Source: Chloroflexus aggregans DSM 9485 | GTDB lineage: Bacteria > Chloroflexota > Chloroflexia > Chloroflexales > Chloroflexaceae | Assembly: GCF_000021945.1 (NCBI RefSeq) | Contig: NC_011831.1 | Coordinates: forward strand, 2,121,353 to 2,185,352 | DNA length: 64,000 nucleotides | Direction of reading: 5' to 3' | Shown here: one piece after another, positions 6,253 to 35,863 of the stretch | How the letters are laid out: every line of letters begins with the position of its first letter | Position numbering within the stretch: the first letter of the stretch is position 1 | Notes under the pieces: generated by a model | Databases searched by the model: none | The model's input: the letters and a program-made list of their open reading frames with translations, nothing else | Told to the model about the DNA's origin: nothing | Made by a program: the position numbers and the translations under genes

Positions 6253-6292
6253 GGCAGCTCCTTACGGTAGTTTGGCGCATGCACTCACCCAA

Positions 6293-6314
6293 GGCGACAC
6301 CTATCGGTGTCACC
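6293..6314. other. stem-loop between two surface-protein genes
   Basis: GGCGACACC and GGTGTCACC form a 9-bp stem with one mismatch around a TATC loop, in the 96-bp gap between the gene ending at 6349 and the gene starting at 6252. There is no T-run on the minus strand, so it is a weak terminator or mRNA-processing candidate at best. Confidence 0.4.
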
Positions 6315-6348
6315 GGTGAGTACATTTGGTTTGCACAAACGAGCGAGA

Positions 6349-7407: not shown

Positions 7408-7427
7408 TGTTCAACTCCTCTTAAACG

Positions 7428-8723: not shown

Positions 8724-8884
8724 GGAACACCTCGGCGGTTCAAAACGTGTGCTCATATATAAACCGCACGAGATGACAAAAAGATGCGCGGAAAATTGCG
8801 CAAATTGTAAAGACACCGTGGAATCGGTTGGTGCCGGCTATGTGTACGGCCTGGGAGCTGACACGAGTGAGATGAGCTGACACT

Positions 8885-8905
8885 CCCACGGCTAAAGCCT
8901 GTGGG
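8885..8905 (-). repeat. right-end hairpin of IS copy 1
   Basis: On the minus strand CCCAC-A-GGC, TTTA loop, GCC-GTGGG forms the imperfect palindrome found at the right end of all three copies. In IS605-type elements such a hairpin is the single-strand recognition site of TnpA and lies within the 3' guide-RNA (omega RNA) region of tnpB. The tnpB stop codon falls in its loop. Confidence 0.75.
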
Positions 8906-10033
8906 GTTCTCGGTTCTGCGGCCCGCCCAACGGCAAAGCCTCCCCGAAGGCGGTGCCCCCGCCCTTCTTTAGGATGTTAAGCGCAGCATTATGATCGCGG
9001 TGCAATTCACAACCACAATACGGGCAGGAGTGCCAGCGAACGGCAAGCCGTTTGGGAACGGACTCGCCACAGCGCGCGCATATGTGCGACGTTCCGGCAG
9101 GGTTGACTTCCACACGACTCGCCCAGCACGTGCAGCCTTGGCGAGCAGGATATTCAGAACGATGCCCCATCCGGCGTCGGAGATCGATTTGGCAAGGGGA
9201 TGGTTCCGTACCATCCCCCGAATGTTCAGTTTCTCAACCACAATATGGTCATCCTCATTGACCGGTGCGCGGGCGATTGTGTGAGCAAAGTCCCGTCGCG
9301 CCCGCTTGACCTTCAGGTGAGCGTTCGCAAGCAACGTGCGTGCCTTACGGGAGCGATTGCTGCCCTTCACGCGACGAGAAAGCCGCCGTTGTGCTTGTTT
9401 CAGCTTACGTTCGGCGGTGCGATAGGAGCGCGGGTTGGCAATCTGCACGCCGTTCGACAGCGTTGCAAACGACTCACGTCCAACATCAATCCCTACCGAC
9501 CTGCCAGGTGGCGGGAGTGGTGATGGTGCAACAGCACACACGATGTGTGCGTACCATCCATCCGCGTTGCGAACGATGATACAGATGTTTGGCGTACCCT
9601 CAACCGGGCGATCGTTGTGCAGCCGGAGAGCGCCGATTTTGGAGAGAACGAGCCGTCCCTGCTCCCGCTTGACGCCGTTGCCCCACCGGGGATAGGTGAA
9701 GCTATCGTACCGGCCCCGCCCTTTGCAGCGCGGATACCCCGCCTTTTCACCGGCGTTCACCCGCCGAACGAACGCTTGAAACGCGCGGTCTCCTCGACGC
9801 ACGACATCCTGCACCACTTGGGAGTGGACACGCTGCAGATGCGGTACCTCCCGTTTCAGCATAGGCAGGCTGGCGCATTGGCGCGCAAAGCCGATGGACT
9901 CGCCACGCTCCCGATAGGCGGTCTTGCGCTCGCTTAGAGCGTGATTATAGCGTTGGCGGCAGGTTTCCACCGTCTCAGAAAGACAAGCCACTTGAGCAGG
10001 TGTCGGACGCAACTTGGAGACGAACGTTTTCAT
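8892..10033 (-). pseudogene. tnpB: tnpB (RNA-guided nuclease), frameshifted
   Basis: Related over its whole length to the TnpB genes at 23219-24334 and 34676-35818. The frame from 10033 is intact through the RuvC-I aspartate (V-G-I-D-V-G) and the RuvC-II glutamate (V-V-E-K-L-N), then breaks near 9112, where one base of a CCACCACG run has been lost. The remaining C-terminus (zinc finger C-x-x-C...C-x-x-C and RuvC-III H-R-D-H-N) continues in another frame to 8892. The product would therefore lack the zinc finger and the third catalytic residue. Its start overlaps the tnpA stop by four bases, as in intact elements. Confidence 0.9.
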
Positions 10034-10275
10034 CCGCGTGTGCGCTGCGCTTCGATTTGCGGCGTTGCCGAAACAACCAGAGGGAGATGGTCAGGCATGA
10101 TTTCAAGCGCCACCATCGCACACGCCAGCTCTGGCGCCGTCTCACGAATTAGTTTTTCCAGGCGTGTTGTTCGGGGGCCACCTACCATCTTCCGTCGCCG
10201 CTTGGGGCACCAGACTAGGTGGGAGTTGATGAGCAACACGCACGGATCGTTGGAGAGGAGGATCGGTTCCATCAA
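10030..10275 (-). pseudogene. tnpA: tnpA (Y1 HUH transposase) remnant with internal deletion
   Basis: An 81-codon remnant. Residues from about 17 to 74 match the N-terminal half of the 132-residue TnpA of the other two copies, then the frame jumps from S-A-T-P directly to the last E-A-Q-R-T-R-G. About 156 bp are missing, including the helix with the catalytic tyrosine (R-R-Y-S). The HUH motif reads H-L-P instead of H-x-H, as in the other copies. The first residues differ from those copies, so the 5' end has been replaced or truncated. It cannot be a working transposase. Confidence 0.88.
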
Positions 10276-10310
10276 TGAGGGGAATATCAGGCTACTTCTC
10301 TGCGTTAGAG

Positions 10311-10345
10311 GGAGGTGTAGTTAGCTGCATACTACCTACACCTCC
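10311..10345. repeat. 14-bp inverted repeat, perfect but for one base
   Basis: GGAGGTGTAGTTAG and CTACCTACACCTCC pair over 14 positions with one mismatch around a 7-base loop. It lies between the pyrG stop (10409) and the truncated left side of IS copy 1. No T-run follows on the minus strand. It may act as a pyrG terminator or be a relic of another small element; the sequence does not say which. Confidence 0.55.
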
Positions 10346-10408
10346 ACCACAAAACCCTACATAGCAACGCGCGTCGCAGGATACCACGCAATCCCCGTTG
10401 CTAGCGAG

Positions 10409-12117
<1,709 letters not shown>

Positions 12118-22163: not shown

Positions 22164-22466
22164 TCAATGCACCAGAAACTGATCGAGCAGCGCCACCACT
22201 TGTTGACGATACTGTGCCCAAGCCCGCCGGCCGATTAATCCCTCAAGCACGTGTTCAAGACCGTCACGATTACTGAAATACGCCTCCAGGCCATCAGCAG
22301 GACGCAACACATGCCCACTCCAAGGTTTTGCCCCATCGAAGATAATCCGCAATGCCTGATCGGCGACAAAGAGACGGTACTGCAGAGGATTATCACTTTC
22401 ACGTTTGTATGTCATCATCGCATGCGTATTGGGTGAGCGATGCGAAGTTTCAAGACAGAACAACAT
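22164..22466 (-). CDS. small protein of unknown function
   Basis: A 100-residue protein I do not recognise. The ATG at 22466 is chosen because GGAGG lies six bases upstream. It has no signal peptide or membrane helix. Notable features are an F-V-A-D-Q-A-L-R-I-I-F-D-G-A-K-P-W-S-G-H stretch and a C-terminal R-R-A-W-A-Q-Y-R-Q-Q-V-V-A-L-L-D helix. The good ribosome site and even composition argue for a real gene. It is convergent with the ABC operon and stands upstream of IS copy 2. A long-armed inverted repeat (22507-22548) lies in its 5' region. Confidence 0.6.
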   Translation of the reverse strand: MLFCLETSHRSPNTHAMMTYKRESDNPLQYRLFVADQALRIIFDGAKPWSGHVLRPADGLEAYFSNRDGLEHVLEGLIGRRAWAQYRQQVVALLDQFLVH

Positions 22467-22506
22467 CATCAGCCTCCATCTATGTCCGTATATCATTGCG
22501 ATTCAA

Positions 22507-22548: not shown

Positions 22549-22722
22549 AGTCGAGGCGCTGGAGGTCAGCTCAGCGCACATACACTGTACCACAGCACAA
22601 AGCGCAAACATACCAACCGAGGGTGGATCAATGGGTGGAATAGAAGGTGGATTGAACGCTGGGTCGCAGATCATCCTCGTTTACGCAACGGAGTGAGCAG
22701 TTACAGAACAGGTGCGCGAAAG

Positions 22723-22743
22723 CCCACACCCTTTAGGGGTGGG
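22723..22743 (+). repeat. left-end hairpin of IS copy 2
   Basis: CCCACACCC, TTTA, GGGGTGGG: imperfect palindrome near the left end, the expected TnpA recognition hairpin. The same structure lies at 34180-34200 in copy 3 and is absent from copy 1. Confidence 0.7.
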
Positions 22744-22823
22744 ATGAAGCGCGATACTGATGTGTAGATACACATTGCACACCCACACAACATCATCTAC
22801 ACAATCTATGATATCCTGTTGCT

Positions 22824-23222
22824 ATGAAACAGATGGACCACTCCAACGATACGTGCGTGTCGCTCATCAACTCCCACCTGGTCTGGTGCCCCAAGCGGCG
22901 ACGGAAGATGGTAGGTGGCCGCCTAAAAACACGTTTAGAAGACCTGATTCGTGAGACGGCGCCAGAGCTGGGGTGTGAGATGGTGGCGCTTGAAATCATG
23001 CCTGACCATCTCCCTCCGGTTGTTTCGGCAACGCCGCACTGGGTACCCAACCACATCGTTGGGCGGTTCAAGGGCAAAACCAGCCGCATCCTGCGACAGG
23101 AGTTTCCTTTCCTGCAACGCATGCCGTCCTTGGGGTCTCGTTCGTATGTCTGGTCAACGACCGGACACGTTTCCGCCGATACCATCCGGCGGTATAGCGA
23201 AGCGCAGCGCACACGCGGATGA
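22824..23222 (+). CDS. tnpA: TnpA, Y1-type HUH transposase with altered HUH motif
   Basis: A 132-residue IS200/IS605 transposase of normal length. The opening S-L-I-N-S-H-L-V-W-C-P-K-R-R-R-K, the G-R-F-K-G-K-T-S-R block and the C-terminal helix with the putative catalytic tyrosine (T-I-R-R-Y-S-E) are present. The metal-binding HUH motif should read H-hydrophobic-H; here it reads M-P-D-H62-L-P64, so the second histidine is proline. This should impair or abolish single-strand cleavage. In working elements TnpA excises and inserts the element as single-stranded DNA circles. The stop overlaps the tnpB start (ATGA). Confidence 0.88.
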   Translation: MKQMDHSNDTCVSLINSHLVWCPKRRRKMVGGRLKTRLEDLIRETAPELGCEMVALEIMPDHLPPVVSATPHWVPNHIVGRFKGKTSRILRQEFPFLQRMPSLGSRSYVWSTTGHVSADTIRRYSEAQRTRG

Positions 23223-24334
23223 AGACATTTGTCTCCAAGTTGCGTCCGACACCTGCTCAAGTGGCTTGTCTTTCTGAGACGGTCGAAACCTGCCGCCAAC
23301 GCTACAATCACGCTTTGAGCGAGCGCAAGACCGCCTATCGGGAACGTGGCGAGTCCATCGGCTTTGCGCGCCAATGCGCCAGCCTGCCTATGCTGAAACG
23401 GGAGGTGCCGCATCTGCAGCGTGTCCACTCCCAAGTGGTGCAGGATGTCGTGCGTCGAGGAGACCGCGCGTTTCAAGCGTTCGTTCGGCGGGTGAACGCC
23501 GGCGAAAAGGCGGGGTATCCGCGCTGCAAAGGGCGGGACCGGTACGATAGCTTCACCTATCCCCGGTGGGGCAACGGCGTCAAGCGGGAGCAGGGACGGC
23601 TCGTCCTCTCCAAAATCGGCGCTCTCCGGCTGCACAACGATCGCCCGGTTGAGGGCACACCAAACATCTGTATCATCGTTCGCAACGCGGATGGATGGTA
23701 TGCACACATCGTGTGTGACGTTGCACCGTCGCCACTCCCGCCAACCGGCAGGTCGTTTGCAACGCTGTCGAGCGGCGTGCAGATTGCCAACCCGCGCTCC
23801 TATCGTGTCGCCGAACGCACGCTGAAACAGGCACAACGACGGCTCGCTCGTCGCGTGAAGGGTAGCAATCGCTCCCGTAAGGCACGCACGTTGCTTGCGA
23901 ACGCTCACCTGAAGGTCAAGCGGGCGCGACGGGACTTTGCTCACACAATCGCCCGCGCACCGGTCAATGAGGATGACCATATTGTGGTTGAGAAACTGAA
24001 CATTCGGGGGATGGTACGGAACCGTCCCCTTGCCAAATCGATCTCCGACGCCGGATGGGGTATCGTTCTGAATATCCTGCTCGCCAAGGCTGCACGTGCT
24101 GGGCGAGTCGTGGTGGCAGTCAACCCTGCCGGAACGTCGCACGTATGCGCGCACTGTGGCGAGTCCGTTCCCAAACGGCTTGCCGTTCGCTGGCACTCCT
24201 GCCCGTATTGTGGTTGTGAATTGCACCGCGATCATAATGCTGCGCTTACTATCCTAAAGAAGGGCGGGGGCACCGCCTTCGGGGAGGCTTTGCCGTTGGG
24301 CGGGCCGCAGAACCGAGAACCCCACAGGCTTTAG
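23219..24334 (+). CDS. tnpB: TnpB with RuvC-I catalytic aspartate deleted
   Basis: A 371-residue TnpB, open from start to stop. TnpB is the RNA-guided endonuclease of IS605-type elements and the ancestor of Cas12. Compared with copy 3 it lacks nine residues at 23752-23755, where V-G-I-D-V-G should give the RuvC-I aspartate; the sequence runs P-T-G-R-S-F-A-T-L. The 27-bp loss lies between two GTCG repeats, as expected for slippage. The RuvC-II glutamate (V-V-E-K-L-N), the zinc finger (C-A-H-C...C-P-Y-C) and the RuvC-III aspartate (H-R-D-H-N) remain. It is predicted to be unable to cut DNA but may still bind it. The guide RNA region would span the 3' end and run into the promoter region of the next operon. 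Confidence 0.9.
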   Translation: MKTFVSKLRPTPAQVACLSETVETCRQRYNHALSERKTAYRERGESIGFARQCASLPMLKREVPHLQRVHSQVVQDVVRRGDRAFQAFVRRVNAGEKAGYPRCKGRDRYDSFTYPRWGNGVKREQGRLVLSKIGALRLHNDRPVEGTPNICIIVRNADGWYAHIVCDVAPSPLPPTGRSFATLSSGVQIANPRSYRVAERTLKQAQRRLARRVKGSNRSRKARTLLANAHLKVKRARRDFAHTIARAPVNEDDHIVVEKLNIRGMVRNRPLAKSISDAGWGIVLNILLAKAARAGRVVVAVNPAGTSHVCAHCGESVPKRLAVRWHSCPYCGCELHRDHNAALTILKKGGGTAFGEALPLGGPQNREPHRL

Positions 24335-24341
24335 CCGTGGG
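24321..24341 (+). repeat. right-end hairpin of IS copy 2
   Basis: CCCAC-A-GGC, TTTA, GCC-GTGGG, eight bases before the TCAG end. It is identical to the hairpins of copy 1 (8885-8905) and copy 3 (35805-35825) and overlaps the tnpB stop. Confidence 0.75.
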
Positions 24342-24367
24342 AGTGTCAGCAAGAAGCACTGTGCAAG

Positions 24368-24400: not shown

Positions 24401-25498
24401 TTGAAATATCAACTGACCCTACACCCCGTTGCCGGAGCATGGCACAGCGAGCAGCTTACGCTTACGGTCGAGGGTGAATACATTCGTGATGTTGAATACC
24501 GACCGGCTACCGGTGATGGTGCGTATGCCCAACGCCTTCTCCAAGGTGGTGGAGAGAGCGCAGTACGGGCAGCGGCACAAGTCTGTCCATATTGTAGTGT
24601 TGCTCATACCCTTGCGTTAAGTTTGGCGCTCGAAGCACTAGCCGAGATCACAGCACCATTACGCGCGCAAGCGATACGGGTTATTGTAGCCGAACTTGAA
24701 CGTGCTGCATCGCATATGAATACGTTGGCGGCTCTTATAGCCGCCTTAGGCCTGAACAGCGCAACACGCCTGAGTCAACTGGAAACCCGCATTCGTTCAA
24801 TCTTACTGGCGCTCTTAGGCCACCACGAGGCTGCGTATATCCGGCCGGGTGGATTAGCCGAACCGCCCGACGAAGCACGCTTAGCTGACACCGAACGAGC
24901 TATCAACGAGCTACTACCACATATGATTGAACTTGCCGAGCAAACCATTCCGCGGCGCACGTTGGTAGCACGAATGGTAGACATCGGCGTACTCACCACC
25001 GAAGCTGCCCGACAATTTGGTCTAGCCGGTCCATTAGGACGAGCCAGCGACATCACAACCGATCAACGCATCGATGCGCCTTACGCCGGTTATACCGTAC
25101 TCACACCGGCTCTGGTCGTTGAACAAGGTGGTGATGTCCATGCCAGAGCAGTAGTCTTATTAATCGAAGCGATTGAATCCTTGCGATTGGCAGTACGTTG
25201 GTTGCATAACCTACCCATTGGCGAAACGTACACCGCATTTACGCTGAGGTTAGGTGAAGGGACGGCAACCGTTGAAGCACCACGCGGACCGTTGCGCTAT
25301 ACTGTGCGTAGTGATGGTCAACGATTGACGGCGGTGGAGATCGGGATTGCGCCACAACTAGATCGGTTACTGGCCCGCACACTCTTGCAAAACGCCGCAG
25401 TGGATGATACGTTGCTGATCGCTATCTCGACCGATCCTTGTACTGCTTGCTGGCGCGCAGCAACCTCTGTGATTGGACGTGAGCATCTACCATTGTAA
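24401..25498 (+). CDS. [NiFe]-hydrogenase-like large subunit / NuoD homologue (Ech/Hyf type)
   Basis: A 365-residue protein, about the size of Ech hydrogenase large subunits and shorter than HycE. The TTG at 24401 follows an AGGAGG site. An N-terminal V-C62-P-Y-C65-S-V-A-H69 block stands where hydrogenases have R-x-C-G-x-C-x-x-x-H, and D-P-C347-T-A-C350 near the C-terminus matches the D-P-C-x-x-C motif. Complex I NuoD lacks these cysteines, so the four possible Ni-Fe ligands point to the hydrogenase side. However, the usual Arg and Gly of the first motif are replaced, so activity is open. About 15 residues follow the last cysteine. The next four genes encode membrane subunits. No small subunit (NuoB/HycG-like), ferredoxin or maturation gene is adjacent. 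Confidence 0.8.
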   Translation: MKYQLTLHPVAGAWHSEQLTLTVEGEYIRDVEYRPATGDGAYAQRLLQGGGESAVRAAAQVCPYCSVAHTLALSLALEALAEITAPLRAQAIRVIVAELERAASHMNTLAALIAALGLNSATRLSQLETRIRSILLALLGHHEAAYIRPGGLAEPPDEARLADTERAINELLPHMIELAEQTIPRRTLVARMVDIGVLTTEAARQFGLAGPLGRASDITTDQRIDAPYAGYTVLTPALVVEQGGDVHARAVVLLIEAIESLRLAVRWLHNLPIGETYTAFTLRLGEGTATVEAPRGPLRYTVRSDGQRLTAVEIGIAPQLDRLLARTLLQNAAVDDTLLIAISTDPCTACWRAATSVIGREHLPL

Positions 25499-25565
25499 CC
25501 TTCGTCGAGACGACAGAGAGGGATACCGATCTGCACCGTCGCCATAATCCACGGATAGAAGTTTC

Positions 25566-27263
25566 ATGGGTGTCACAATCTGCCTGATCGGCCTGTTAGC
25601 GGCAGCGGTAATGTGCTTTTTACTGACCACAACCGGTCTTACCCGCCGGATGGGGTTATTTGCTGCGTTGGTCGCAGGACTAGCAACCGTCGGCGTCGCG
25701 CTTGACCCAGTGGTTCTGGCTCCTACCGACCCGTTGCTGACTATCGGGTCAATCCCGCTAACTTTACCATCAGCGGTTGCCCTGAGCGAGCGGGTCATCG
25801 TCGTTGCCGTCTTGCTGAGCGGAACCGTTGGGTTACTAGCGCTCGCCTTGACGGCTCCGCCATCAACAATCGGTTTTGGGGCTTTATTTGGCTGGCTCCT
25901 CCTCAGTCTGGCGGCAGCGTTATTGAGTTGGATTATTCCTCCGCTGAGCTTTCTTACCCCACTGAGTTGGGTACTAGCAGTGGTATCAGTACATGGAAGT
26001 TTACTCGCTGCCGGTACGCAGCATGAGCCAGATCGCTTACCGGGCTATCTCATCGCCGGAGCAGTAGCCGTCGTGGCGGTAAGTAGTCTGATCGCGACGA
26101 CCGCCCTCCAATCACCAGACACCTTACCGGCGCCGGTGATTGTAGTCATTGCTATCATCGGCGCCTTAACCCTCGCCGGAGCACCACCTTTTGCCGGTAC
26201 ACGCCTCGATGCGGTCGGCGCACCGCCATTGATCGGCACATTGACCGTTGGCGTAATCTTACCATCGATTGGTTTAGGCTTTATCGCGCGCATCTTACCC
26301 CAATTACCGCCGCTGCCCGATCTTGCGAGTGCTGTGCTGGCAGCTACCGGTACGCTCGGAGCATTGGGCGCTGCGTTCGGCGCATTACGGTCAACATCGG
26401 GCCGCGAACTCGTCTTTTGGCAAGGGGCAATGCAGGCAGGCTTGGTGGTCTGCGCCTCAGCAATCAACGACCCCCTGGCCGGCTTAGCCGCATCGGCGTT
26501 GTTGTTGGTCATACCACTTCATGCGGTGACCGGCGGTTTGGTGGTAGCCGCGATCGAACGGCATCAAGGCAGCGATACGCTGGATGGTACACCGGCTCAG
26601 GTTCGCTTACCACTCACCGGAGTGCTCTGGATTGTGATTACGGCAACGGCTACCGGCTTCCCCGTCAGTTGGAGCTTTTGGGGTTGGCGCTGGCTGAGCG
26701 AAGCACTCGTCACTCGACTTGTGTGGGCCATACCACCCCTGATTGCGGCAGCAGTGATAGGGTTGGCGGCCGGCCTCCCGCTCCTCTTCCGCTGTTGGTA
26801 CGGCCGTTCCGGCGTCAGCGATCGTGGTCACGAGCAGATTCTCGGCGGTCTCGTGCTCGCACCACTGGTGCTAGCGGGCATAGTTCCGTGGCTAGCGTGG
26901 CCGCTCTGGCTCAGTTGGTCACCCTTTGCTCCGCCAATCTTACCCGCTGAGCCGATTGCGTGGCCATTTGTCGGCCTTGCCCTGGCTATCGGGATTGGTG
27001 GGTGGTTTCTCGCGCGGCATGCAGTCTCGTCACCGTCGCTCAACACCGGTGAGGCAGTCATTCCAACGTGGCAAGGTATGGGAGAGATACTCGGTTGGCC
27101 GGTCGAAGTTGCCAACGCGCGCACCATACTTACTCTGATCGGGCGCGGCCTTGATCGGGTAGCGACGCTGCTGCATACGGTGATGATCATCTTCGAGCAG
27201 CGCTACTATCTGTTTGGCGTGATCGTTGCACTGATCGCTATCCTCGTGTTGATGGCACAGTGA
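25566..27263 (+). CDS. NuoL/HyfB-like antiporter-type membrane subunit
   Basis: A 565-residue, strongly hydrophobic protein with about 14 membrane segments, of the size of HyfB/NuoL/Mrp-antiporter subunits that form the ion-pumping arm of complex I-related enzymes. The characteristic central block is diverged, so the call relies on length, hydropathy, weak motif likeness (A-G-A-P-P-F-A-G, L-L-V-I-P-L-H-A-V-T-G) and the gene context. The start is an ATG 67 bp after the large-subunit gene. The end overlaps or nearly abuts the next gene. Confidence 0.7.
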   Translation: MGVTICLIGLLAAAVMCFLLTTTGLTRRMGLFAALVAGLATVGVALDPVVLAPTDPLLTIGSIPLTLPSAVALSERVIVVAVLLSGTVGLLALALTAPPSTIGFGALFGWLLLSLAAALLSWIIPPLSFLTPLSWVLAVVSVHGSLLAAGTQHEPDRLPGYLIAGAVAVVAVSSLIATTALQSPDTLPAPVIVVIAIIGALTLAGAPPFAGTRLDAVGAPPLIGTLTVGVILPSIGLGFIARILPQLPPLPDLASAVLAATGTLGALGAAFGALRSTSGRELVFWQGAMQAGLVVCASAINDPLAGLAASALLLVIPLHAVTGGLVVAAIERHQGSDTLDGTPAQVRLPLTGVLWIVITATATGFPVSWSFWGWRWLSEALVTRLVWAIPPLIAAAVIGLAAGLPLLFRCWYGRSGVSDRGHEQILGGLVLAPLVLAGIVPWLAWPLWLSWSPFAPPILPAEPIAWPFVGLALAIGIGGWFLARHAVSSPSLNTGEAVIPTWQGMGEILGWPVEVANARTILTLIGRGLDRVATLLHTVMIIFEQRYYLFGVIVALIAILVLMAQ

Positions 27264-27274
27264 GCAGGAACGAT

Positions 27275-27997
27275 ATGACGATTGATATTTGGATCATTCT
27301 GCTTAGCATCTCAGCAGGTGGAATCCTGTTGCTACGCGATTGGCGGCTCACCGTTGGGCTGTTACTCTTGAATTATGTGGCATTAGCCGGCTTGCTGAAC
27401 CAACAATCGTTTATTCCACCCGATCTTGGTCTGTTTGGGCTGAGTTCATTAGCCGTGATAAAAGTGCTGACCGGCCTTTGCGCCACTTCCATCCTTGCCG
27501 TAACAGCACTGACCTTTTCTCGTGACTACGGCCTTGAAGACCTTGACGAATTCGGGCAAGCGGAGTTACGACGCGCCTTGCGGGCAGCAGTTCGCCAACG
27601 CTCAACCGAAACGTTTCGTCTCATCGATTATATGCTACCTTTTGGATCAGGCCTTGCAGCGCTTGGCACAAGCATCCTCTTACCACTTATCTACCCAATC
27701 GCGCCTAGCCCGGTCCTCGATTTCGCGTGGTACTGGCTCGCCTTTAGTGGCGTCTTGACCATCGCCACGGCAAGCGATGTCTTGAAGATTGGGCTAGGAA
27801 TGTTACTTTGTACCGGCGGCATCGATCTGCTTTACAGCACCGTGATCAGCGCACCGGCGGCAAGTGGCTTGAAGATTGTACCGCTATCACTACTCAGTAT
27901 AGTGCAAATCTTGCTCGCCTTAGCCATTGCTTATCTCGCCGGCCTGGTCTACGGTCGCCTCAAGACACTCGCCATCAGCGAACTGTTCCGCGGATAA
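27275..27997 (+). CDS. HyfE-like (NuoK-related) membrane subunit
   Basis: About 240 residues. Three N-terminal membrane segments are followed by a charged loop (G-L-E-D-L-D-E-F-G-Q-A-E-L-R-R) and four or more C-terminal segments. The K-I-G-L-G-M-L-L-C-T-G-G-I-D-L-L-Y segment near residues 175-192 resembles the conserved NuoK/HyfE helix I-G-L-E-x-M-L. HyfE-type subunits combine a NuoK-like part with extra helices, matching this length. The ATG at 27275 has AGGA upstream; a GTG at 27260 overlapping the previous stop is an alternative. Two bases separate it from the next start. Confidence 0.65.
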   Translation: MTIDIWIILLSISAGGILLLRDWRLTVGLLLLNYVALAGLLNQQSFIPPDLGLFGLSSLAVIKVLTGLCATSILAVTALTFSRDYGLEDLDEFGQAELRRALRAAVRQRSTETFRLIDYMLPFGSGLAALGTSILLPLIYPIAPSPVLDFAWYWLAFSGVLTIATASDVLKIGLGMLLCTGGIDLLYSTVISAPAASGLKIVPLSLLSIVQILLALAIAYLAGLVYGRLKTLAISELFRG

Positions 27998-27999
27998 CC

Positions 28000-29451
28000 A
28001 TGCTGTACCTATTACTCATCTTCTTCCCGATCAGTATGGCGTTCACCACCTTCCTCTTGCGCCGTCGATCGCGGACCGCCATCGGATTGGCTATCGGCAC
28101 CCTGATAACCGAACTCTTGCTTGCGATGCAAGTGCGAGTTGACGATCCGATCCGGGTGCTGGGCGTGACATTCCTCCTCAGCCCATTACATCAGATTTTT
28201 CTCTTTCTCTTTCTTGGAGTAGGCATCGTCACCCTTATCGCTGCACTGATCCTGCCTCACGGGGAAAATCTCAGCGCGATTGGCTTGCTTACGATCGGGC
28301 AGACCATCGCCATTCTGGTCATGCAAGACTCGTTTGTCACCGCACTCGTGCTCGTGTCGATTGGTCTCACCACCGTGCTGGCGATTGTCGATCTGCCGGT
28401 CGGTGCGGGGGTTTTGGTGAGTCGGCAAGTCTTAGCGGCGGCACTTAAATATCTGGTTCTGATGGTTATCAGTGGGATTTTGCTCTACATCGCATATGTG
28501 CTCACCGACATCTTCCGACCGGGCGAACTGCCGGGACGAATCTCGCCGGCCCGTTTCATTTTGGCGCTGCTGGCTGCCGGTTTTGCGTTGCGGATGGCGT
28601 TGACTCCGTTCCATTCATGGCTGGTTGATCTCGTCTCATATAGCGGTTCTCTAGCCGGTATCTTGTTGATCGCACTACCGGCGCCGGCCAGTCTGCTCAT
28701 CTTCCTGCTTACCCTCCAGAGTTTTCCCACGCTGATCTTTGAAGGTGGGCAGGCGCTCAACGTCTTGCGCACCGGAGCTGCAATCAGTGCCGTACTTGCG
28801 AGTGCTTTGGCGTTAACTGCGGGGTCACTACGTGGGCGAATCGCTTACCTTATCGCAGGACACTGCGGAATCATCTTCTACAGTTTTGCCTCATTATCAC
28901 TGCCCGGTCTGAGTGGGGCTATCTTGGGCAGTATCAACCTGGCCTTAGGCGTAACCGCAGTGCTCCTCAGTTTAGCGCTGATCGAATATCCCGACGAACA
29001 ATTAGCGGCAACAACACGCAGTGATCTGTTTTGGCAGCGCCCGATGGCCGGCGCGGGTCTACTCGGTGGTGGGCTGGCACTCATCGGATGGTTCCCGTTT
29101 CCGGGCGGCACGAGCTATCTCCTTGCATTACAGGCGGCGGCGGCCATCAACTGGATCGAAGTACTGGTTTTGGCAACAGCGATGGCACTTGCCGCTCTCA
29201 CCCTGGTACAATTGACGATCCAGTATTTGCTAGGGCCACGTGAATCATCACCCGCTGCGGAAACTCCACTGCTTGAGGAATCTGACCTGAACCTGTTAGC
29301 ACCACCGCGTCATGTTGGCGAACCGATAGGGGTCGGTGGGCTAATCGGGGTATTGCTGGTGGTCATCATTGTGATAGGTCTCTTTCCCAACCTTCTCTTA
29401 CCAACTATCGAGGCCGCAGTGCGTAGCTTGGCGGTGCTGTCGGCCTCATAG
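28000..29451 (+). CDS. HyfF/NuoN-like antiporter-type membrane subunit
   Basis: 483 residues with about 13-14 membrane segments, second antiporter-like subunit of the operon. Within the membrane part, L-R-M-A-L-T-P-F-H-S-W-L-V-D (about 190-203) is the well-known NuoL/M/N signature (L-x-K-x-x-x-x-P-x-H-x-W-L-x-x-A), which makes the family call firm. Here the usual lysine position carries Arg, and the final alanine is Asp. Having two antiporter-like subunits beside one NuoK-like subunit is typical of Hyf-type complexes. The ATG at 28000 follows the previous stop by two bases; the same frame is open back to 27808, but that part overlaps the previous gene. Confidence 0.8.
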   Translation: MLYLLLIFFPISMAFTTFLLRRRSRTAIGLAIGTLITELLLAMQVRVDDPIRVLGVTFLLSPLHQIFLFLFLGVGIVTLIAALILPHGENLSAIGLLTIGQTIAILVMQDSFVTALVLVSIGLTTVLAIVDLPVGAGVLVSRQVLAAALKYLVLMVISGILLYIAYVLTDIFRPGELPGRISPARFILALLAAGFALRMALTPFHSWLVDLVSYSGSLAGILLIALPAPASLLIFLLTLQSFPTLIFEGGQALNVLRTGAAISAVLASALALTAGSLRGRIAYLIAGHCGIIFYSFASLSLPGLSGAILGSINLALGVTAVLLSLALIEYPDEQLAATTRSDLFWQRPMAGAGLLGGGLALIGWFPFPGGTSYLLALQAAAAINWIEVLVLATAMALAALTLVQLTIQYLLGPRESSPAAETPLLEESDLNLLAPPRHVGEPIGVGGLIGVLLVVIIVIGLFPNLLLPTIEAAVRSLAVLSAS

Positions 29452-29568
29452 CGCTGTTCGACGGTCATGACACCCCGAGTTACGATAGACGAAGAGAACG
29501 GGGCAATTGTACGAATGCCGATAGGATACTACCCGTTTGCACCATGACCCATCGGCGTATACTGCACA

Positions 29569-30390
29569 ATGAAAGGGTTTGGACCGTTTATGTGGATAGC
29601 TGAGTTGCTAGCGCTCTTGATCTATCCGGGTGGTTTGTGGGCGTTTGGGCTAGGGATCGGGTATCGCGTGCTCACCACATGGCAACTACCAACCAACGGC
29701 CAATTACGCTTTGCAACCGATCGACCTGGTTGGATAGCACTCGCCACGCTCATCTGCGTTGCCGGTGGGCTTACCGGTCTACCGTGGCCGTGGCATCCGT
29801 CGCCACACGCATTTGGCTGGTTAGGGGCGTGGGCCTTGCTCGAGGTAGCGGCATGGCTGCCACTGTGGCCGACCTTAACGGCGGGAACTTCTCGTATCGT
29901 CCGTGCTGCTATGCGCGAGGCACAGATAAGCCTGCTCGGTCGCGCATTACTGTGGGGCGTAGCAGCGATAGGCTTCAGCAACGACAATACGCTGACCGGA
30001 GCAGCGCTTGCCGGCCATGGGCTGATGTTGGTGAGCGGCCTCCTGAGCCTCCCGGCGGCGATCAATTGGGGGCCATTCGGTCCAGAACCGTCACTCGGTC
30101 CACACGGTATTGTCGAAGGACAGTCGGCCAAGATGGCTGCTGCTATAACCTTCGCCCGTGATCTGGTAGCCGCGGCACTGATTACGGTCGTCTGGCAAGC
30201 CGGTTTACCACTCGCCAGCTTGCCGGCGTGGGTAGCAGCAATGGCGATCATTGCGGGGAGTGTGGTCACGATTCTCAGCCTACGCTGGCTACAAGGCCGT
30301 GTACCCCGTTTTAGCGTACCGGTCGCACTGCGCTTTACACTGGGTTGGGCCGGCAGTATAGCCTTGTTGGCAGTGATAATGTTAAGATAA
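29569..30390 (+). CDS. HyfC/NuoH-like membrane subunit
   Basis: 273 residues with about seven membrane segments. The NuoH-like features are the loop A-A-M-R-E-A-Q-I-S-L-L-G-R-A (about 112-125), corresponding to the complex I sequence before the quinone cavity; G-I-V-E-G-Q-S-A-K (about 181-189); and near the end R-V-P-R-F-S-V-P, equivalent to R-x-P-R-x-R-x-D-Q. It would join the soluble arm to the pumping arm. A 117-bp gap precedes it, with a possible -10 TATACT only 6 bp from the ATG, so an almost leaderless secondary transcript is conceivable. In enteric Hyf operons this gene sits near the front; here it is last. Confidence 0.72.
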   Translation: MKGFGPFMWIAELLALLIYPGGLWAFGLGIGYRVLTTWQLPTNGQLRFATDRPGWIALATLICVAGGLTGLPWPWHPSPHAFGWLGAWALLEVAAWLPLWPTLTAGTSRIVRAAMREAQISLLGRALLWGVAAIGFSNDNTLTGAALAGHGLMLVSGLLSLPAAINWGPFGPEPSLGPHGIVEGQSAKMAAAITFARDLVAAALITVVWQAGLPLASLPAWVAAMAIIAGSVVTILSLRWLQGRVPRFSVPVALRFTLGWAGSIALLAVIMLR

Positions 30391-30451
30391 AATAGCAATA
30401 CCTGAGATTCGGTAGCCAGGTCACAACGGCGATCACGTTTGGAGCATCATC

Positions 30452-31504
30452 ATGACCGAAGTCATCGTAGTTGAAGGTCTCACAAAGCGTTACGGTCATG
30501 TCTCGGTATTACGCGGAGTCAATCTGCGTGTGGTCGCCGGTGAAGTCTACGGACTAATAGGTCCGAATGGTGCCGGCAAATCGACTCTTATCCATCTTTT
30601 ATTAGGGTTTTTGTATCCCGATAGTGGGCGCATTCGCATACTCGGCAGCGCCGATCTCGACGCGCAGCGCCGCTTAATCGGATATGTTCCCGAACGTCAG
30701 CGTTATCATACGCACTACACAGCCCTTGAATACCTCACCTTTCTCGGCCAATTCGACGGTATTCCGCTTGAACGCTTACGTCAGCGTATCGACGAGCTGC
30801 TCGAATTAACCGGCCTCACCGCGATGGCCAATCGTTATCTGCGCACGTTCTCGAAGGGGATGTTGCAACGGCTCGGCATCGCCCAAGCCCTGTTAACCGA
30901 CCCTGACTTGTTACTGATCGACGAACCGACCAGCGGGCTTGATCTCGACGGTCAGCGAGAATTGCTCACCCTTCTCAAGGATGTGCGACAGCGCGGTCAC
31001 ACGGTCTTGCTCTGCACCCACCGACTGGCCGAAGTGGAATACCTTTGCGACCGCGTCGGTATCCTCACCGAAGGCAAAATAATGCGCGAAGTGAACGTAC
31101 CTGAGGTACGCCAACTCCCCGGCAGTATGGTTATTCAGACGGGACCGCTCGACCTCGCGCTGCGCCAACGGCTTGAAATGATCGGGCCAGAGGTGCAAAC
31201 CGATGAACAAACCGTACTGATTAGCCCTCATACACCGGAGCTACAAGCAAAGGTACTGCACATACTGCTGGAAGCGAATATTTCCATCAACGTACTGGAA
31301 CCGCAGATGAGTCATTTAATGCAGATCTATTTGCGCACCGTTAGCGGTCAACCAACAGACAACCTGGGCGCATCTCCTGTAACGCGAATCTCGCTCCGTG
31401 ACACGCCACAACCACCACCAACCGATGAGATAGACCCGATACTGAAACGTCTTTTACAAAGTGGCGGTATCAATTCCACCGGTTCTAAGGATGGTAAACA
31501 ATGA
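30452..31504 (+). CDS. ABC-2-type exporter ATP-binding protein
   Basis: 350 residues. The nucleotide-binding domain (about 5-225) has Walker A G-P-N-G-A-G-K-S-T, signature F-S-K-G-M-L-Q-R-L-G-I and Walker B L-L-L-I-D-E-P-T-S-G-L-D, followed by the H-loop L-L-C-T-H-R. The C-terminal extension (about 225-350) resembles regulatory tails of CcmA/DrrA-like exporters and ends in a Pro-rich linker. The S-K-G-M-x-Q-R form is typical of exporters. The gene overlaps the permease gene by ATGA, so the pair should be translated together. It follows the hydrogenase-like operon by 61 bp; a shared function is not evident. Confidence 0.92.
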   Translation: MTEVIVVEGLTKRYGHVSVLRGVNLRVVAGEVYGLIGPNGAGKSTLIHLLLGFLYPDSGRIRILGSADLDAQRRLIGYVPERQRYHTHYTALEYLTFLGQFDGIPLERLRQRIDELLELTGLTAMANRYLRTFSKGMLQRLGIAQALLTDPDLLLIDEPTSGLDLDGQRELLTLLKDVRQRGHTVLLCTHRLAEVEYLCDRVGILTEGKIMREVNVPEVRQLPGSMVIQTGPLDLALRQRLEMIGPEVQTDEQTVLISPHTPELQAKVLHILLEANISINVLEPQMSHLMQIYLRTVSGQPTDNLGASPVTRISLRDTPQPPPTDEIDPILKRLLQSGGINSTGSKDGKQ

Positions 31505-32280
31505 AACAGACCCTCGCACAAGCAACGCGATTAGTTCGGTTTAACTTGCTTGAGTACTTACGCTCTGGTCGGATCTTTTTTGAACTGGTGGCGACGGTTG
31601 CCTGCTATGCAGCTTTGCTTCGCCCGACCGGTACCCCGATGAATGCCGGCTATCTGTTTACCGTGCTTGGGCTGTTCGGGCCACTGATGGCGATGATCAC
31701 CACCGGTTTTATGATCGGGCTTGTTGACCGCCCTCAGGGGTACATCGTCTTGGCCCACAACGTTAGTCGTAGTGCTTACTTACTGGGTGTATTCTTCACG
31801 TCCATTACGGTCGCGACGACAATGTACGGTATTCTCAGTCTGCTCGTTGCCATCCTCAATCGGGCAATTGACCTTGATCTGATAGGCTGGGGTCTCGCCA
31901 CCTTACCCCTCTTCCTCAATATGTGCCTCGGCGCAGCTCTCGTCCTGCTGCTATCACCACTGGTAGTGCAAACCGGGTGGCGTCTCTTTATCCTGGCACT
32001 GGTGGCCGTTGCGTTATCGAGTAACGTGATTGGTGGGCCGATCATCAACCAAATTACTGCAATAAATCCTGTATTAGTCGACGTGCTGCGGGCAGTACAG
32101 ACGATACTGAGTAGCCCACTCGTGCCGGCGATGTACGGCTACCACCTGAGTATTACCCGTACCTTCTCGAATATCACGGCGTGGTCGAACCTACTCGCTC
32201 AGTGTTCTCTCTTGCTCGCATTTCTCGGACTGGCGCACTACGCTTTCAAACGACGCGACCTGATCTTTAGCGCGTCGTAG
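31501..32280 (+). CDS. ABC-2-type transporter permease
   Basis: 259 residues with six predicted membrane helices, the basic layout of an ABC-2 permease: a short cytoplasmic start, helix 1 near 25-45, and a large membrane part. It has no conserved catalytic residues. Its partner is the ATPase gene overlapping by four bases. The substrate cannot be predicted; relatives export antibiotics, lipids or polysaccharides, or act in gliding. The 3' end overlaps the convergent M23 peptidase gene by 14 bp. Confidence 0.85.
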   Translation: MKQTLAQATRLVRFNLLEYLRSGRIFFELVATVACYAALLRPTGTPMNAGYLFTVLGLFGPLMAMITTGFMIGLVDRPQGYIVLAHNVSRSAYLLGVFFTSITVATTMYGILSLLVAILNRAIDLDLIGWGLATLPLFLNMCLGAALVLLLSPLVVQTGWRLFILALVAVALSSNVIGGPIINQITAINPVLVDVLRAVQTILSSPLVPAMYGYHLSITRTFSNITAWSNLLAQCSLLLAFLGLAHYAFKRRDLIFSAS

Positions 32281-34066
32281 TATCGGTCACCGGTACAAAG
32301 GCGATTGCATCTGCCCAAATCCCCCGCCGACGATCACCGGCCAGCGTTCCGGTGGCGACCAACGGTGTGCTTGTTGGATCAAATTGATACACCCCTAAAT
32401 CGGCCCACCAATTCCGCTCAGCTTCTAGATCAACCGTCACTACCGTTTCACCATCGTGGTGACGGATGAGAAACCGCGCCTCTCGTGAGTCATCGTAGCC
32501 GTTGAGGGCAAATGGCACATACGCCAATACCCGATAGGTGCCGGCGATAGGTAATTCCGGTTGCCAGACTGCGACGCGCGGTGCAGCGAAATCACTCATC
32601 CGCCACGGACGCAATGTGCTAACTGCCAATTGTGACGGAGCAAACTGCGCGCTCCCGCCGTAGCCCATTGCTATTGTTTGCCATTCACCACTCGTGCGAA
32701 AACCAGGATCGCCGTCATCAACGACGATCACGTTTGGCGGCGGCGGTCCACAGGGCGAGGGCATATCAGCCCATAGCCAAACGCTGATCTGACCCACCGG
32801 ATTCACAGCCCACGGATCAGGATCGGCACCGCACCAACCGTATGGATCGACATCACGGCCTAGATACTGAACCTGAAAGTGCAGATGCGCACCACGCGCA
32901 CAACCGGTATCGCCGGCAATACCGATCACCGCGCCACGTTCCACGACATCACCGGACGTCACAAAGACGCGATCCAGATGCCAATACAGAGTTCGGTACC
33001 CGTTACCGTGCTCAATAATCACCGCACCCGCCGGTGTTGCACACCCATCATCGGAATAGCCGGCAAAGACAACCCGACCAGGTGCAGCGGCCAGTACCCG
33101 ATCGGGCGGTCCCATAGCATAATCCCAACCGGTATGTCCATCGTAGGCAAACGCACGATCGGTTTCGGCCCGGCCCCAGTAGGTATGCAACGAACCGTTG
33201 GCCCGCAAAAATGGACTATCGTGGTCGAAAAACGAGGTCACAGGCACGTTGTGTTCTGCCGGACGCGAGAGAAACGGTACCGCCGGCGGTGGCCAGTCGA
33301 GCGGGGCAAGACGCGGATCAAGATCAAACAGGCGCTGATAGGTCGGGGCTACCGCCCAGAGTAACCCATCGATCTGATCCGGAGTAGTCGTCGGGGCGAG
33401 CGCTCGACTGAGCACATACCGACTAAGATCGGTTGGCGCTCCGATCTGACTCCCATCAGCAAAGGTCAACGGTGGTAACTCGGTCGGACCAAGCAGAGCG
33501 TAATCACGCAAAGCTGCCCGCAGCTCGCGGGTCAGCCAGCGTAACTGGTTAAACAACCCTCGCCGGTTGCCGTTATCGCCGCGAAAGCCGGCAGCCCACG
33601 CCAACTGCCCGTCACTCGGATTAGGAGTACTAAGCAGACCACTCTGTAGTTCCATCAGGCTAAGCAACAGACGGGGGCTGATACTGTACAAATTGCTCAA
33701 CACGACCAACACATCGGTAAACGAATGGCTGCGCCCACCGACCACCGTGCGGATGGTAGCCAGCGGACTATTACGTGCTTCTAGAAACGCTTGAATCTCA
33801 GGCCCACTAAATTGGTAATCGTAACTGAGCCGTTGGGGATCGAACAAAGGATGGACGGCAGGGGCAGGTGTGGGGGTCGCAACCGGTGGCTGGGTTGGTG
33901 TGATCGTTGGGAAGACGGTGGGGAGTGATGTGGGTAGCACAGTCGCAGTTGCCGGTTGGGAGCCGATGACCGTCGGGGTTAGCGGCAGTGGTGACGGAGT
34001 CACCGGCGGTAACGGGGCCGTGCAGGCAGTCAGGCAGATCAGTGCGATCAGCAACAAGCGATGCAT
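32267..34066 (-). CDS. M23-family peptidase lipoprotein
   Basis: A 599-residue lipoprotein with lipobox L-T-A-C at about residue 15, followed by a Pro/Thr/Val-rich linker (about 20-75). An alpha-helical region (about 80-270) precedes an M23 (LytM-type) domain at about 300-410, with H-T-G-W-D-Y, W-H-L-D-R and the zinc-binding H-L-H-F. The first histidine of the usual H-x-x-x-D zinc site is seen as G-H-T-G-W-D. M23 enzymes cut peptide cross-links of peptidoglycan. A C-terminal part (about 445-599) looks like a carbohydrate-binding or beta-sandwich domain of the golvesin-C-like type (T-Y-R-V-L-A-Y-V-P). It is convergent with the ABC exporter genes. Confidence 0.85.
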   Translation of the reverse strand: MHRLLLIALICLTACTAPLPPVTPSPLPLTPTVIGSQPATATVLPTSLPTVFPTITPTQPPVATPTPAPAVHPLFDPQRLSYDYQFSGPEIQAFLEARNSPLATIRTVVGGRSHSFTDVLVVLSNLYSISPRLLLSLMELQSGLLSTPNPSDGQLAWAAGFRGDNGNRRGLFNQLRWLTRELRAALRDYALLGPTELPPLTFADGSQIGAPTDLSRYVLSRALAPTTTPDQIDGLLWAVAPTYQRLFDLDPRLAPLDWPPPAVPFLSRPAEHNVPVTSFFDHDSPFLRANGSLHTYWGRAETDRAFAYDGHTGWDYAMGPPDRVLAAAPGRVVFAGYSDDGCATPAGAVIIEHGNGYRTLYWHLDRVFVTSGDVVERGAVIGIAGDTGCARGAHLHFQVQYLGRDVDPYGWCGADPDPWAVNPVGQISVWLWADMPSPCGPPPPNVIVVDDGDPGFRTSGEWQTIAMGYGGSAQFAPSQLAVSTLRPWRMSDFAAPRVAVWQPELPIAGTYRVLAYVPFALNGYDDSREARFLIRHHDGETVVTVDLEAERNWWADLGVYQFDPTSTPLVATGTLAGDRRRGIWADAIAFVPVTDTTTR

Positions 34067-34280
34067 AGTGCGATAAAGATAGCCGAAAGTGAGGGAACGG
34101 TCAAGTGCGGGAGCGAGAGTGTAACACCGGCTATCGATACAATCGGCGGTACATCACTTACAGGACAGGCGCGCGAAAGCCCACACCCTTTAGGGGTGGG
34201 ATGAAGCGCGATACTGATGTGTAGATACACATTGCACACCCACACAACATCATCTACACAATCTATGATATCCTGTTGCT

Positions 34281-34679
34281 ATGAAACAGATGGACCACTC
34301 CAACGATACGTGCGTGTCGCTCATCAACTCCCACCTGGTCTGGTGCCCCAAGCGGCGACGGAAGATGGTAGGTGGCCGCCTAAAAACACGTTTAGAAGAC
34401 CTGATTCGTGAGACGGCGCCAGAGCTGGAGTGTGCGATGGTGGCGCTTGAAATCATGCCTGACCATCTCCCTCCGGTTGTTTCGGCAACGCCGCACTGGG
34501 TACCCAACCACATCGTTGGGCGGTTCAAGGGCAAAACCAGCCGCATCGTGCGACAGGAGTTTCCTTTCCTGCAACGCATGCCGTCCTTGGGGTCTCGTTC
34601 GTATGTCTGGTCAACGACCGGACACGTTTCCGCCGATACCATCCGGCGGTATAGCGAAGCGCAGCGCACACGCGGATGA
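34281..34679 (+). CDS. tnpA: TnpA, Y1-type HUH transposase with altered HUH motif
   Basis: 132 residues, differing from the copy 2 protein at only a few positions (for example E-C-A instead of G-C-E in the middle, and I-V-R instead of I-L-R). The catalytic-tyrosine helix (T-I-R-R-Y-S-E) is present. The HUH motif again reads H62-L-P64 (34464-34472), with proline in place of the second metal-binding histidine. It overlaps the tnpB start by four bases. It is full length, but predicted to be impaired. Confidence 0.88.
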   Translation: MKQMDHSNDTCVSLINSHLVWCPKRRRKMVGGRLKTRLEDLIRETAPELECAMVALEIMPDHLPPVVSATPHWVPNHIVGRFKGKTSRIVRQEFPFLQRMPSLGSRSYVWSTTGHVSADTIRRYSEAQRTRG

Positions 34680-35818
34680 AGACGTTTTTCTCCAAGTTAC
34701 GTCCGACACTTGCTCAAGGAGCGTGTCTTTCTGAGACGGTCGAAACCTGCCGCCAACGCTACAACCACGCTCTGAGCGAGCGCAAGACTGCCTATCGGGA
34801 ACGTGGCGAGTCCATCGGCTTTGTGCGCCAATGCGCCAGCCTGCCTATGCTGAAACGGGAGGTGCCGTATCTGCAGCGTGTCCACTCCCAAGTGGTACAG
34901 GATGTCGTGCGTCGAGGAGACCGCGCGTTTCAAGCGTTCGTTCGGCGGGTGAACGCCGGTGAAAAGGCGGGGTATCCGCGCTGCAAAGGGCGGGGCCGGT
35001 ACGATAGCTTCACCTATCCCCGGTGAGGCAACGGCGTCAAGCGGGAGCAGGGACGGCTCGTCCTCTCCAAAATCGGCGCTATTCGGCTGCACAACGATCG
35101 CCCGGTTGAGGGCACGCCAAACATCTGTATCATCGTTCGCAACGCGGATGGATGGTATGCACACATCGTGTGTGACGTTGCACCGTCGCCACTCCCGCCA
35201 ACCGGTAAGTCGGTAGGGATTGATGTTGGGCTTGAGTCGTTTGCAACGCTGTCGAACGGCGTACAGATTGCCAACCCACGCCACTATCGCGCCGCCGAAC
35301 GCACGCTGAAACAGGCGCAACGACGGCTCGCTCGTCGCGTGAAGGGTAGCAATCGCTCCCGTAAGGCACGCACGTTGCTTGCGAACGCTCACCTGAAGGT
35401 CAAGCGGGCGCGATGGGATTTCGCCCACACAATCGCCCGCGCACCGGTCAATGAGGATGACCATATTGTGGTTGAGAAACTGAACATTCGGGGGATGGTA
35501 CGGAACCGTCCCCTTGCCAAATCGATCTCCGACGCCGGATGGGGTATCGTTCTGAATATCCTGCTCGCCAAGGCTGCACGTGCTGGGCGAGTCGTGGTGG
35601 CAGTCAACCCTGCCGGAACGTCGCACATATGCGCGCGCTGTGGCGAGTCCGTTCCCAAACGGCTTGCCGTTCGCTGGCACTCCTGCCCGTATTGTGGTTG
35701 TGCGTTGCACCGCGATCATAATGCTGCGCTTAACATCCTAAAGAAGGGCGGGGGCACCGCCTTCGGGGAGGCTCAGCCGTTGGGCGGGCCGCAGAACCGA
35801 GAACCCCACAGGCTTTAG
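34676..35818 (+). pseudogene. tnpB: tnpB with in-frame nonsense codon
   Basis: The frame holds 380 codons from 34676 to 35818 but is interrupted by TGA at 35024-35026, where copies 1 and 2 have TGG (Trp). The first 116 residues can be made. The rest is intact in frame and keeps all expected nuclease residues: RuvC-I V-G-I-D-V-G (Asp at codon 183), RuvC-II V-V-E-K-L-N, zinc finger C-A-R-C...C-P-Y-C and RuvC-III H-R-D-H-N. A GTG/ATG restart downstream of the stop is conceivable but would lack the N-terminal target-recognition part. Reversion of one base would restore a full-length protein. Confidence 0.92.
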
Positions 35819-35825
35819 CCGTGGG
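35805..35825 (+). repeat. right-end hairpin of IS copy 3
   Basis: Same imperfect palindrome as in the other copies (CCCAC-A-GGC, TTTA, GCC-GTGGG), eight bases before the element end. Confidence 0.75.
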
Positions 35826-35863
35826 AGTGTCAGAAGACACAGCCGGACCGTGGGCATACCGAT

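Follow-up and report, generated by a model that had tools for sequence, protein, structure and literature searches.

Arguments on the coupling of redox chemistry to proton pumping are underpinned by respiratory complex I and the group 4 hydrogenases, and several members of this superfamily can be compared with a row of genes in the phototroph Chloroflexus aggregans DSM 9485. The row occupies positions 24401 to 32280 of the window, i.e. the whole stretch of 64,000 nucleotides analysed here (NC_011831.1, positions 2,121,353 to 2,185,352, forward strand), in a genome that forms a single contig of 4,684,931 bases; all row positions are given in window numbering. Among the described systems, the membrane-bound hydrogenase (MBH) of Pyrococcus furiosus retains its NiFe and Fe-S subunits, in which it differs from the row, and the redox core of the Ehr complexes includes a small subunit. 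Ehr complexes are introduced, in the accessible part of PMC6349859, as group 4 relatives without the Ni- and Fe-coordinating residues. The formate hydrogenlyase (FHL) module of Escherichia coli comprises HycE, HycG, HycC and HycD, of which HycC is also without one antiporter lysine according to the available sections of PMC9474812. For Chloroflexus itself, available excerpts list two nuo clusters in the C. aurantiacus genome (PMC3150298) and count in C. aggregans either a group 2a and a group 3d hydrogenase or an uptake and a bidirectional one (PMC7784904, PMC8004040). Next to the two nuo sets and two hydrogenases of these excerpts, the row would be a third complex-I-like machine in these model phototrophs; nothing on it was seen in the parts of the literature on Chloroflexus, Roseiflexus, Herpetosiphon and Ehr that our searches returned.

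We read the row as encoding a redox-silent module of the complex I superfamily which derives from a group-4-hydrogenase-like ancestor and probably serves a putative ATP-binding cassette (ABC) exporter, and assign this reading a probability of about 0.5. The identity of the complex is well supported, while its mechanism, outlined below, is what we infer. That the complex is not a hydrogenase appears nearly certain. Loss of the Fe-S subunit and of most pump residues, together with the presence of an ABC transporter in the same row, points to a role that is probably other than making or burning hydrogen. The row contains the following genes:

24401-25498, plus strand: Lg, a large subunit like those of group 4 hydrogenases and NuoD, 365 amino acids, TTG start, with motifs CPYCSVAH and DPCTAC
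25566-27263, plus strand: An1, a MrpA/NuoL-like antiporter-type subunit with zero lysines, the canonical Glu of transmembrane helix 5 (TM5) and Lys of TM7 being absent
27260-27997, plus strand: E, a HyfE/MrpC/NuoK-like subunit, with a weak PDB match and good conservation within the family
28000-29451, plus strand: An2, a NuoN/MrpD-like subunit with Arg198 in place of the TM7 Lys and Tyr373 in place of the TM12 Lys
29569-30390, plus strand: C, a subunit of NuoH/HycD fold, recognised from structure only
30452-31504, plus strand: ABCa, an ABC ATPase whose best NCBIfam names, DrrA and GldA, are both under cut-off
31501-32280, plus strand: ABCm, a membrane protein taken as permease from its place in the row and an ABC-2 match below threshold (Pfam E 0.34)

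The original prediction had described the first five of these genes (24401-30390) as a membrane complex of a large, two antiporter-like, a HyfE-like and a HyfC-like subunit, and all five were recovered, in agreement with coordinates, profile searches and a structural model of C. Lg matches Complex1_49kDa at 3.4e-26; in profile searches it is closest to HycE of E. coli FHL (5.3e-71), followed by MBH alpha of P. furiosus (4e-66) and the best NuoD (9e-58). The best profile matches of An1 and An2 are MrpA/NuoL-like (2.4e-30) and NuoN/MrpD-like (2.7e-30), respectively, and E weakly matches a MrpC/NuoK-like chain (0.0047), namely a MrpC-like chain of the membrane-bound sulfur-reducing complex (MBS). 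A PDB sequence search with C gave no match, and its hhalign comparison with the NuoH-like open reading frames (ORFs) of the same genome gave no significant one. Its predicted model (pLDDT 90.8), however, matches NuoH, ND1 and HycD folds in the PDB (best E 8.4e-5, TM-score about 0.6). All NCBIfam matches shown for genes of the row lie under cut-off. The gene order, called unusual in that prediction, is indeed so and is moreover fixed. The ABC ATPase/permease pair (30452-32280), which had been missed, belongs to the row as well.

Compared with FHL, the row thus shares the HycE-like large subunit and the NuoH/HycD fold of C, but Chloroflexus lacks a HycG-like subunit, has two antiporter-like subunits, carries an attached ABC pair and has lost more pump residues than HycC. 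Likeness to MBH and MBS of P. furiosus lies in the Mrp-like subunits, in MBH alpha as second-best match of Lg and in MbhJ as best match of the small subunit found in relatives. Both the row and complex I, present in this genome as two nuo sets, belong to one superfamily and share NuoD-, NuoH-, NuoK-, NuoL- and NuoN-type subunits, but Lg falls outside the NuoD branch and displays hydrogenase-type cysteines, and NuoB is missing from the row. Ehr complexes differ from this family, part of which is without the small subunit or without the Fe-S cysteines in it, and which has few pump residues left and an ABC transporter attached; Lg of Chloroflexus, moreover, keeps four cysteines. Filing the locus as an Ehr complex was rejected, the small subunit of the Ehr redox core not having been found in Chloroflexus; Ni/Fe ligands are absent from part of the family, and Chloroflexus keeps the four cysteines. 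Filing it as a group 4 hydrogenase was rejected as well, the small subunit not having been found in any of the eight Chloroflexus genomes.

Of 82 Chloroflexales genomes, 77 contain Lg (E <= 1e-35) and 78 a homologue of ABCm. Surroundings were mapped for 75 of the 77 Lg loci and for L054 from another family of the class, many of them on short contigs; in G084 and G107 Lg was found with its surroundings outside the mapped set, and in G004 the contig stops within Lg. The order Lg-An1-E-An2 is kept in 67/67 loci showing all four genes, and ABCa directly follows C in 42 of 47 assessable loci (27/27 in family f1, 1/1 in f2, 14/14 in f3 and 0/5 in f4). Alignments A1 to A6 cover 22, 22, 22, 20, 13 and 19 of the mapped loci, with L090 (masked, X) and L108 (partial) left out of A4; besides the window, A7 and A8 contain 41 of 46 and 41 of 57 listed relatives, and A9 holds 19 of 32. 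On a tree of E and An2 (63 of 76 loci, G419 being labelled as lacking the small subunit although the contig of this locus, L204, ends there), each of the four families forms one group. On a tree of 37 chosen large subunits, all from Chloroflexota, those of the row cluster in a single clade (support 99) that lies among the sampled group-4-like sequences and outside the NuoD branch. Inheritance of the row within the Chloroflexales is vertical. E was also used to scan 84,980 species, an approach that can detect only sequences carrying the DNA patterns; it returned 61 loci, nearly all under Chloroflexales or Chloroflexota metagenome-assembled genome names, and the four named differently (Singulisphaera, Thermoflexus and two 'bacterium') match contigs of G438, G145, G422 and G421 in length. 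With this separate clade and a subunit set of its own, the earlier idea of a hydrogenase-related complex of new type is supported.

The nearest sampled relatives of the Lg clade are L054 and L062. L054 (G282, positions 5190-10871), outside the Chloroflexales, shows the order Lg-An1-E-An2-small subunit, its small subunit being devoid of ligand cysteines, and C was not found in the G282 genome. L062 (G090, 5114-10469) is a compact relative with a degenerate first Lg motif (CGSAAHHH) and a small subunit, next to which a hydrolase-like, one antiporter-like and a likely NuoH-like gene were assigned by eye.

One line of evidence for the proposed loss of redox function is the fate of the small Fe-S subunit. 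Relatives from Roseiflexaceae, Herpetosiphon and some Chloroflexaceae carry a MbhJ/HycG-like protein (121-147 amino acids in the six first read; MbhJ match 7.5e-20), which lies between An2 and C in 27 of the 55 loci holding both genes. A family profile finds it in 44 of 82 genomes at E <= 1.5e-41, the next matches being 6.6e-17 or weaker, and cleanly separates it from NuoB. By this profile, the small subunit is absent from 8/8 Chloroflexus genomes, which yield weak NuoB-type matches only. Hence, the predicted absence of a small subunit beside the complex extends to the whole genome, and the accompanying suggestion that one is borrowed from elsewhere is not supported: a search of C. aggregans for an orphan NuoB/HycG-like gene gave none, as its four Oxidored_q6 genes adjoin two NuoD-like and two PF00374 hydrogenase large subunits. 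On the tree of E and An2, loss of the small subunit falls on a 27-row clade with Chloroflexus, Oscillochloris, Chloroploca and Viridilinea (fork support 92, inner 26-row fork 100) and a second time on G425. Where the subunit persists within rows, 25 of the 28 read have all four ligand cysteines. In the Herpetosiphon-type genomes (f2), the row falls into two separate parts, [Lg-An1-E-An2] and [small subunit-C-ABCa-ABCm], the second being complete in four of five loci fetched and cut by the contig end in the fifth; C is present in 9/9 f2 genomes searched. Here, the small subunits of L196, L197, L200 and L203 have none of the four ligand cysteines, and the same applies to G418 and L054.

The cysteines of Lg tell a related story. 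Its motifs read C62-P-Y-C65-S-V-A-H69 and D345-P-C347-T-A-C350, and Gln and Pro stand where R-x-C-G-x-C has Arg and Gly, so that the hydrogenase-type cysteines and the deviating first motif had both been described correctly. All four cysteines are kept in 47 of 74 full-length Chloroflexales Lg sequences; the other 27 miss at least one. The loss of cysteines in close homologues, named beforehand as a possible objection, therefore applies to part of the order but not to the window and its six full-length Chloroflexus relatives. Replacement has been piecemeal: Chloroploca has Ala, f2 has Asp and f4 has His, Ser, Gly and Asn are also seen, and in G216 and G410 all four are gone. HypD, without which [NiFe] hydrogenases do not obtain their Fe(CN)2CO group, was detected in 50 of 82 genomes and is missing from eight of nine f2 genomes, G418 being the one that has it. 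At 18 loci a four-cysteine Lg was read together with a four-cysteine small subunit, and in 14 of these cases HypD is absent from the genome, ten of the 14 genomes being at least 90% complete (G303 even 100%); the four HypD-bearing cases each carry an ordinary hydrogenase at 1e-233 or better. This argues that even in the fullest loci the cysteine motifs signal no NiFe(CN)2CO site. CxxC motifs alone are consequently insufficient to name such loci hydrogenases. Of the hyp genes that were to be checked in C. aggregans, HypD was found at 588,683, with the uptake hydrogenase about 5 kb away, the search covering none of the other hyp genes.

Canonical residues for proton pumping have largely disappeared from both antiporter-like subunits. 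At the profile positions of An1, the TM5 Glu, TM7 Lys and TM8 Lys are each found in 0/73 sequences, and TM12 shows Arg in 57 and Lys in one of 73. In An2, the TM5 Glu occurs in 1/67, the TM7 Lys in 0/67 (Arg in 65) and the TM8 Lys in 0/67, and the TM12 Lys is seen in 27/67 overall but in 0/7 from Chloroflexus, with gaps in as many as five rows at a site. As controls, two ORFs, named NuoL-like and NuoM-like by us, were aligned to the same profiles. Aligned to the An1 profile, the NuoL-like ORF, which comes from the second nuo locus, had Glu at TM5 and Lys at TM7 and TM12, with Ala at TM8; in the NuoM-like ORF, TM5 was Glu, and TM7 and TM8 were Lys. The An2 profile gave Lys at TM7 for both and Lys at TM12 for one, TM5 being aligned in neither. 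This renders the calls at TM7 and at TM5 of An1 firm and those at TM8 and at TM5 of An2 less firm. As judged from a weak alignment, another residue takes the place of the MrpC Glu in E, and one Asn has become Asp. Other charges are retained: An2 keeps Asp131 in 67/67 and Arg198 in 65/67 sequences, and Glu92 of C is invariant in 42 rows.

What remains is nevertheless under selection. In Lg, R214 and E256 are invariant (75/75), as are E98, E100 and R101 (76/76), and H105 is kept in 72/76 compared to 55/76 for C65; the canopy Arg and Asp are found in 64/75 and 49/75. H105, E256 and R214 align with H284, E437 and R395 of HycE, the numbering offset being derived from the alignment. Residues E437 and R395 of HycE belong to a proposed proton path, as given in the available sections of PMC9474812. 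For the genes present, five f1 pairs gave ratios of nonsynonymous to synonymous substitution rates (dN/dS) of 0.055-0.237 and three Herpetosiphon pairs ratios of 0.023-0.041, these eight pairs not including the window's own genes. The genes tested are under purifying selection. Together with the invariant non-redox residues, these ratios indicate that selection preserves the complex even in lineages in which it seems unable to transfer electrons. Across the order, Ni ligands, Fe-S ligands, small subunit and pump residues have been lost lineage by lineage with the rest under selection, a series which provides a natural experiment on those parts of the scaffold that have roles beyond electron transfer.

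A mechanism consistent with these patterns would start from a six-subunit, group-4-hydrogenase-like ancestor (Lg, An1, E, An2, small subunit and NuoH-like C) that ceased to be an oxidoreductase. Lg may have stayed as a cap over the NuoH-like C, and its His105-Glu256-Arg214 path together with the buried charges of the membrane arm (Asp131 and Arg198 of An2, Glu92 of C, and Asp172, Lys175 and Asp188 of E in alignment A3 numbering) could form a rewired ion path or a conformational relay. The ABC exporter would then be its partner, and the complex would feed or gate this transport to the cell envelope without carrying out redox chemistry. That the redox-silent module supports the exporter by way of an altered ion path or conformational coupling is a tentative proposal. 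The stronger version, a complex-I-type machine of NuoD-, NuoH-, NuoK- and NuoL/N-like parts with neither a redox centre nor a canonical proton pump, whose remaining proton path energises or gates an ABC exporter of nearly all Chloroflexales, is somewhat unlikely; if it holds true, a member of the superfamily has been converted from an oxidoreductase into a transport accessory.

Several observations weigh against a redox-silent module that serves the exporter. Mapping of the pump sites depends on remote profile alignments, the NuoL-like control itself has Ala at TM8, and the TM5 site of An2 aligned in no control. The ABC pair is located elsewhere in the five f4 genomes, its matches are weak in genus g11 (from the ABCm homologue search), and no expression, protein or biochemical data on the row appeared in the portions of the literature searched. 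All four cysteines are kept in 7/7 full-length Lg sequences of Chloroflexus and C. aggregans does have HypD, so that a metal is possible there. Moreover, the 14 HypD-less cases stem from few lineages, ten of them from one genus, and four of the genomes are below 90% complete, among them G432 (82%), whose congeners have HypD; adding four genomes with the small subunit on another contig and its cysteines unread changes the count to 15/22.

The unlinked ABC pair of f4 would equally suit a redox-free ion translocator, i.e. a Mrp-like antiporter or a regulated proton or sodium leak for pH or proton motive force to which the ABC genes are mere neighbours. MrpA-, MrpC- and MrpD-like subunits and the retained intramembrane charges of An2 and C fit this explanation, but An1 and An2 do not show the TM5 Glu and TM7 Lys of known MrpA/D-type antiporter subunits, which are absent or replaced, the window's row holds no spare gene for MrpB, E, F or G (not searched by profile) and thus falls short of a full MrpABCDEFG set, and NuoD- and NuoH-like subunits are retained beside the Mrp-like ones; we therefore consider it unlikely. 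Conservation of the four cysteines in 47/74 Chloroflexales sequences, and in Chloroflexus despite its long branch, could instead indicate another kind of redox complex, in which CPxC and CxxC of Lg bind a new metal, be it Zn, rubredoxin-like Fe or Fe-S, or line a quinone pocket and, in lineages with the small subunit, one [4Fe-4S] cluster serves Lg as in complex I. G216 and G410, which combine an Lg devoid of the cysteines with a four-cysteine small subunit, would represent such a complex I-like state. Single ligands, however, were lost one at a time in clades where the complex persists, none is left in the small subunits read from Herpetosiphon-type genomes, and the mapped rows showed no recognisable electron-entry gene, with neither NADH-module genes nor HycB, HycF or FdhF recognised at the window's row (electron-entry genes were not profile-searched), which makes this explanation rather improbable.

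A genuine [NiFe] hydrogenase with a borrowed small subunit, NuoB or another, would account for the CxxC pairs and His kept in Chloroflexus and could draw on the HypD and two other hydrogenases of the genome. It is extremely improbable in view of the 14 of 18 fullest loci whose genomes miss HypD, the family's own small subunit having been lost or deprived of its cysteines, the full set of partners of the four Oxidored_q6 genes and the mere two hydrogenases counted in the cited excerpts for C. aggregans. Nor does piecemeal loss of ligands, subunits and pump residues make a decaying relic without function any more than a very improbable explanation, given an Lg in 77/82 genomes, a fixed gene order, dN/dS of 0.02-0.24 in eight pairs and invariant non-redox residues.

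Upstream of the row lies a mobile element:

22698-24354, plus strand: IS200/IS605 element with TnpA (22824-23222) and TnpB (23219-24334), outside the complex

This insertion sequence (IS) ends about 46 bp upstream of Lg and separates it from its old upstream region, so that the row may be expressed differently in this strain; relatives have about 180-570 bp between Lg and the gene preceding it. Disruption of the small-subunit gene by the IS was considered and discarded, as the element lies upstream of Lg and the gene is gone from all eight Chloroflexus genomes. IS200/IS605-type copies at 22698-24354, 34155-35837 and 8876-10255 (reverse) share 92-97% identity. A small divergent gene (22164-22496, minus strand) is found upstream of Lg in all eight Chloroflexus genomes and is recognisable in G348, G401, G405 and G414. 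With regard to the annotated complex I genes of C. aurantiacus, Caur_1185, at a distance of 800 genes, is assigned to the second complex I as its nuoF in the available section of PMC3150298; as the accessible text of PMC8004040 places a nuoF homologue within the bidirectional hydrogenase of C. aggregans, Caur_1185 may be hoxF. Downstream of the row and convergent with ABCm, a gene at 32267-34066 (minus strand) resembles M23-type peptidases by eye, and its homologue occupies the same place in 6/6 Chloroflexus loci reaching that far.

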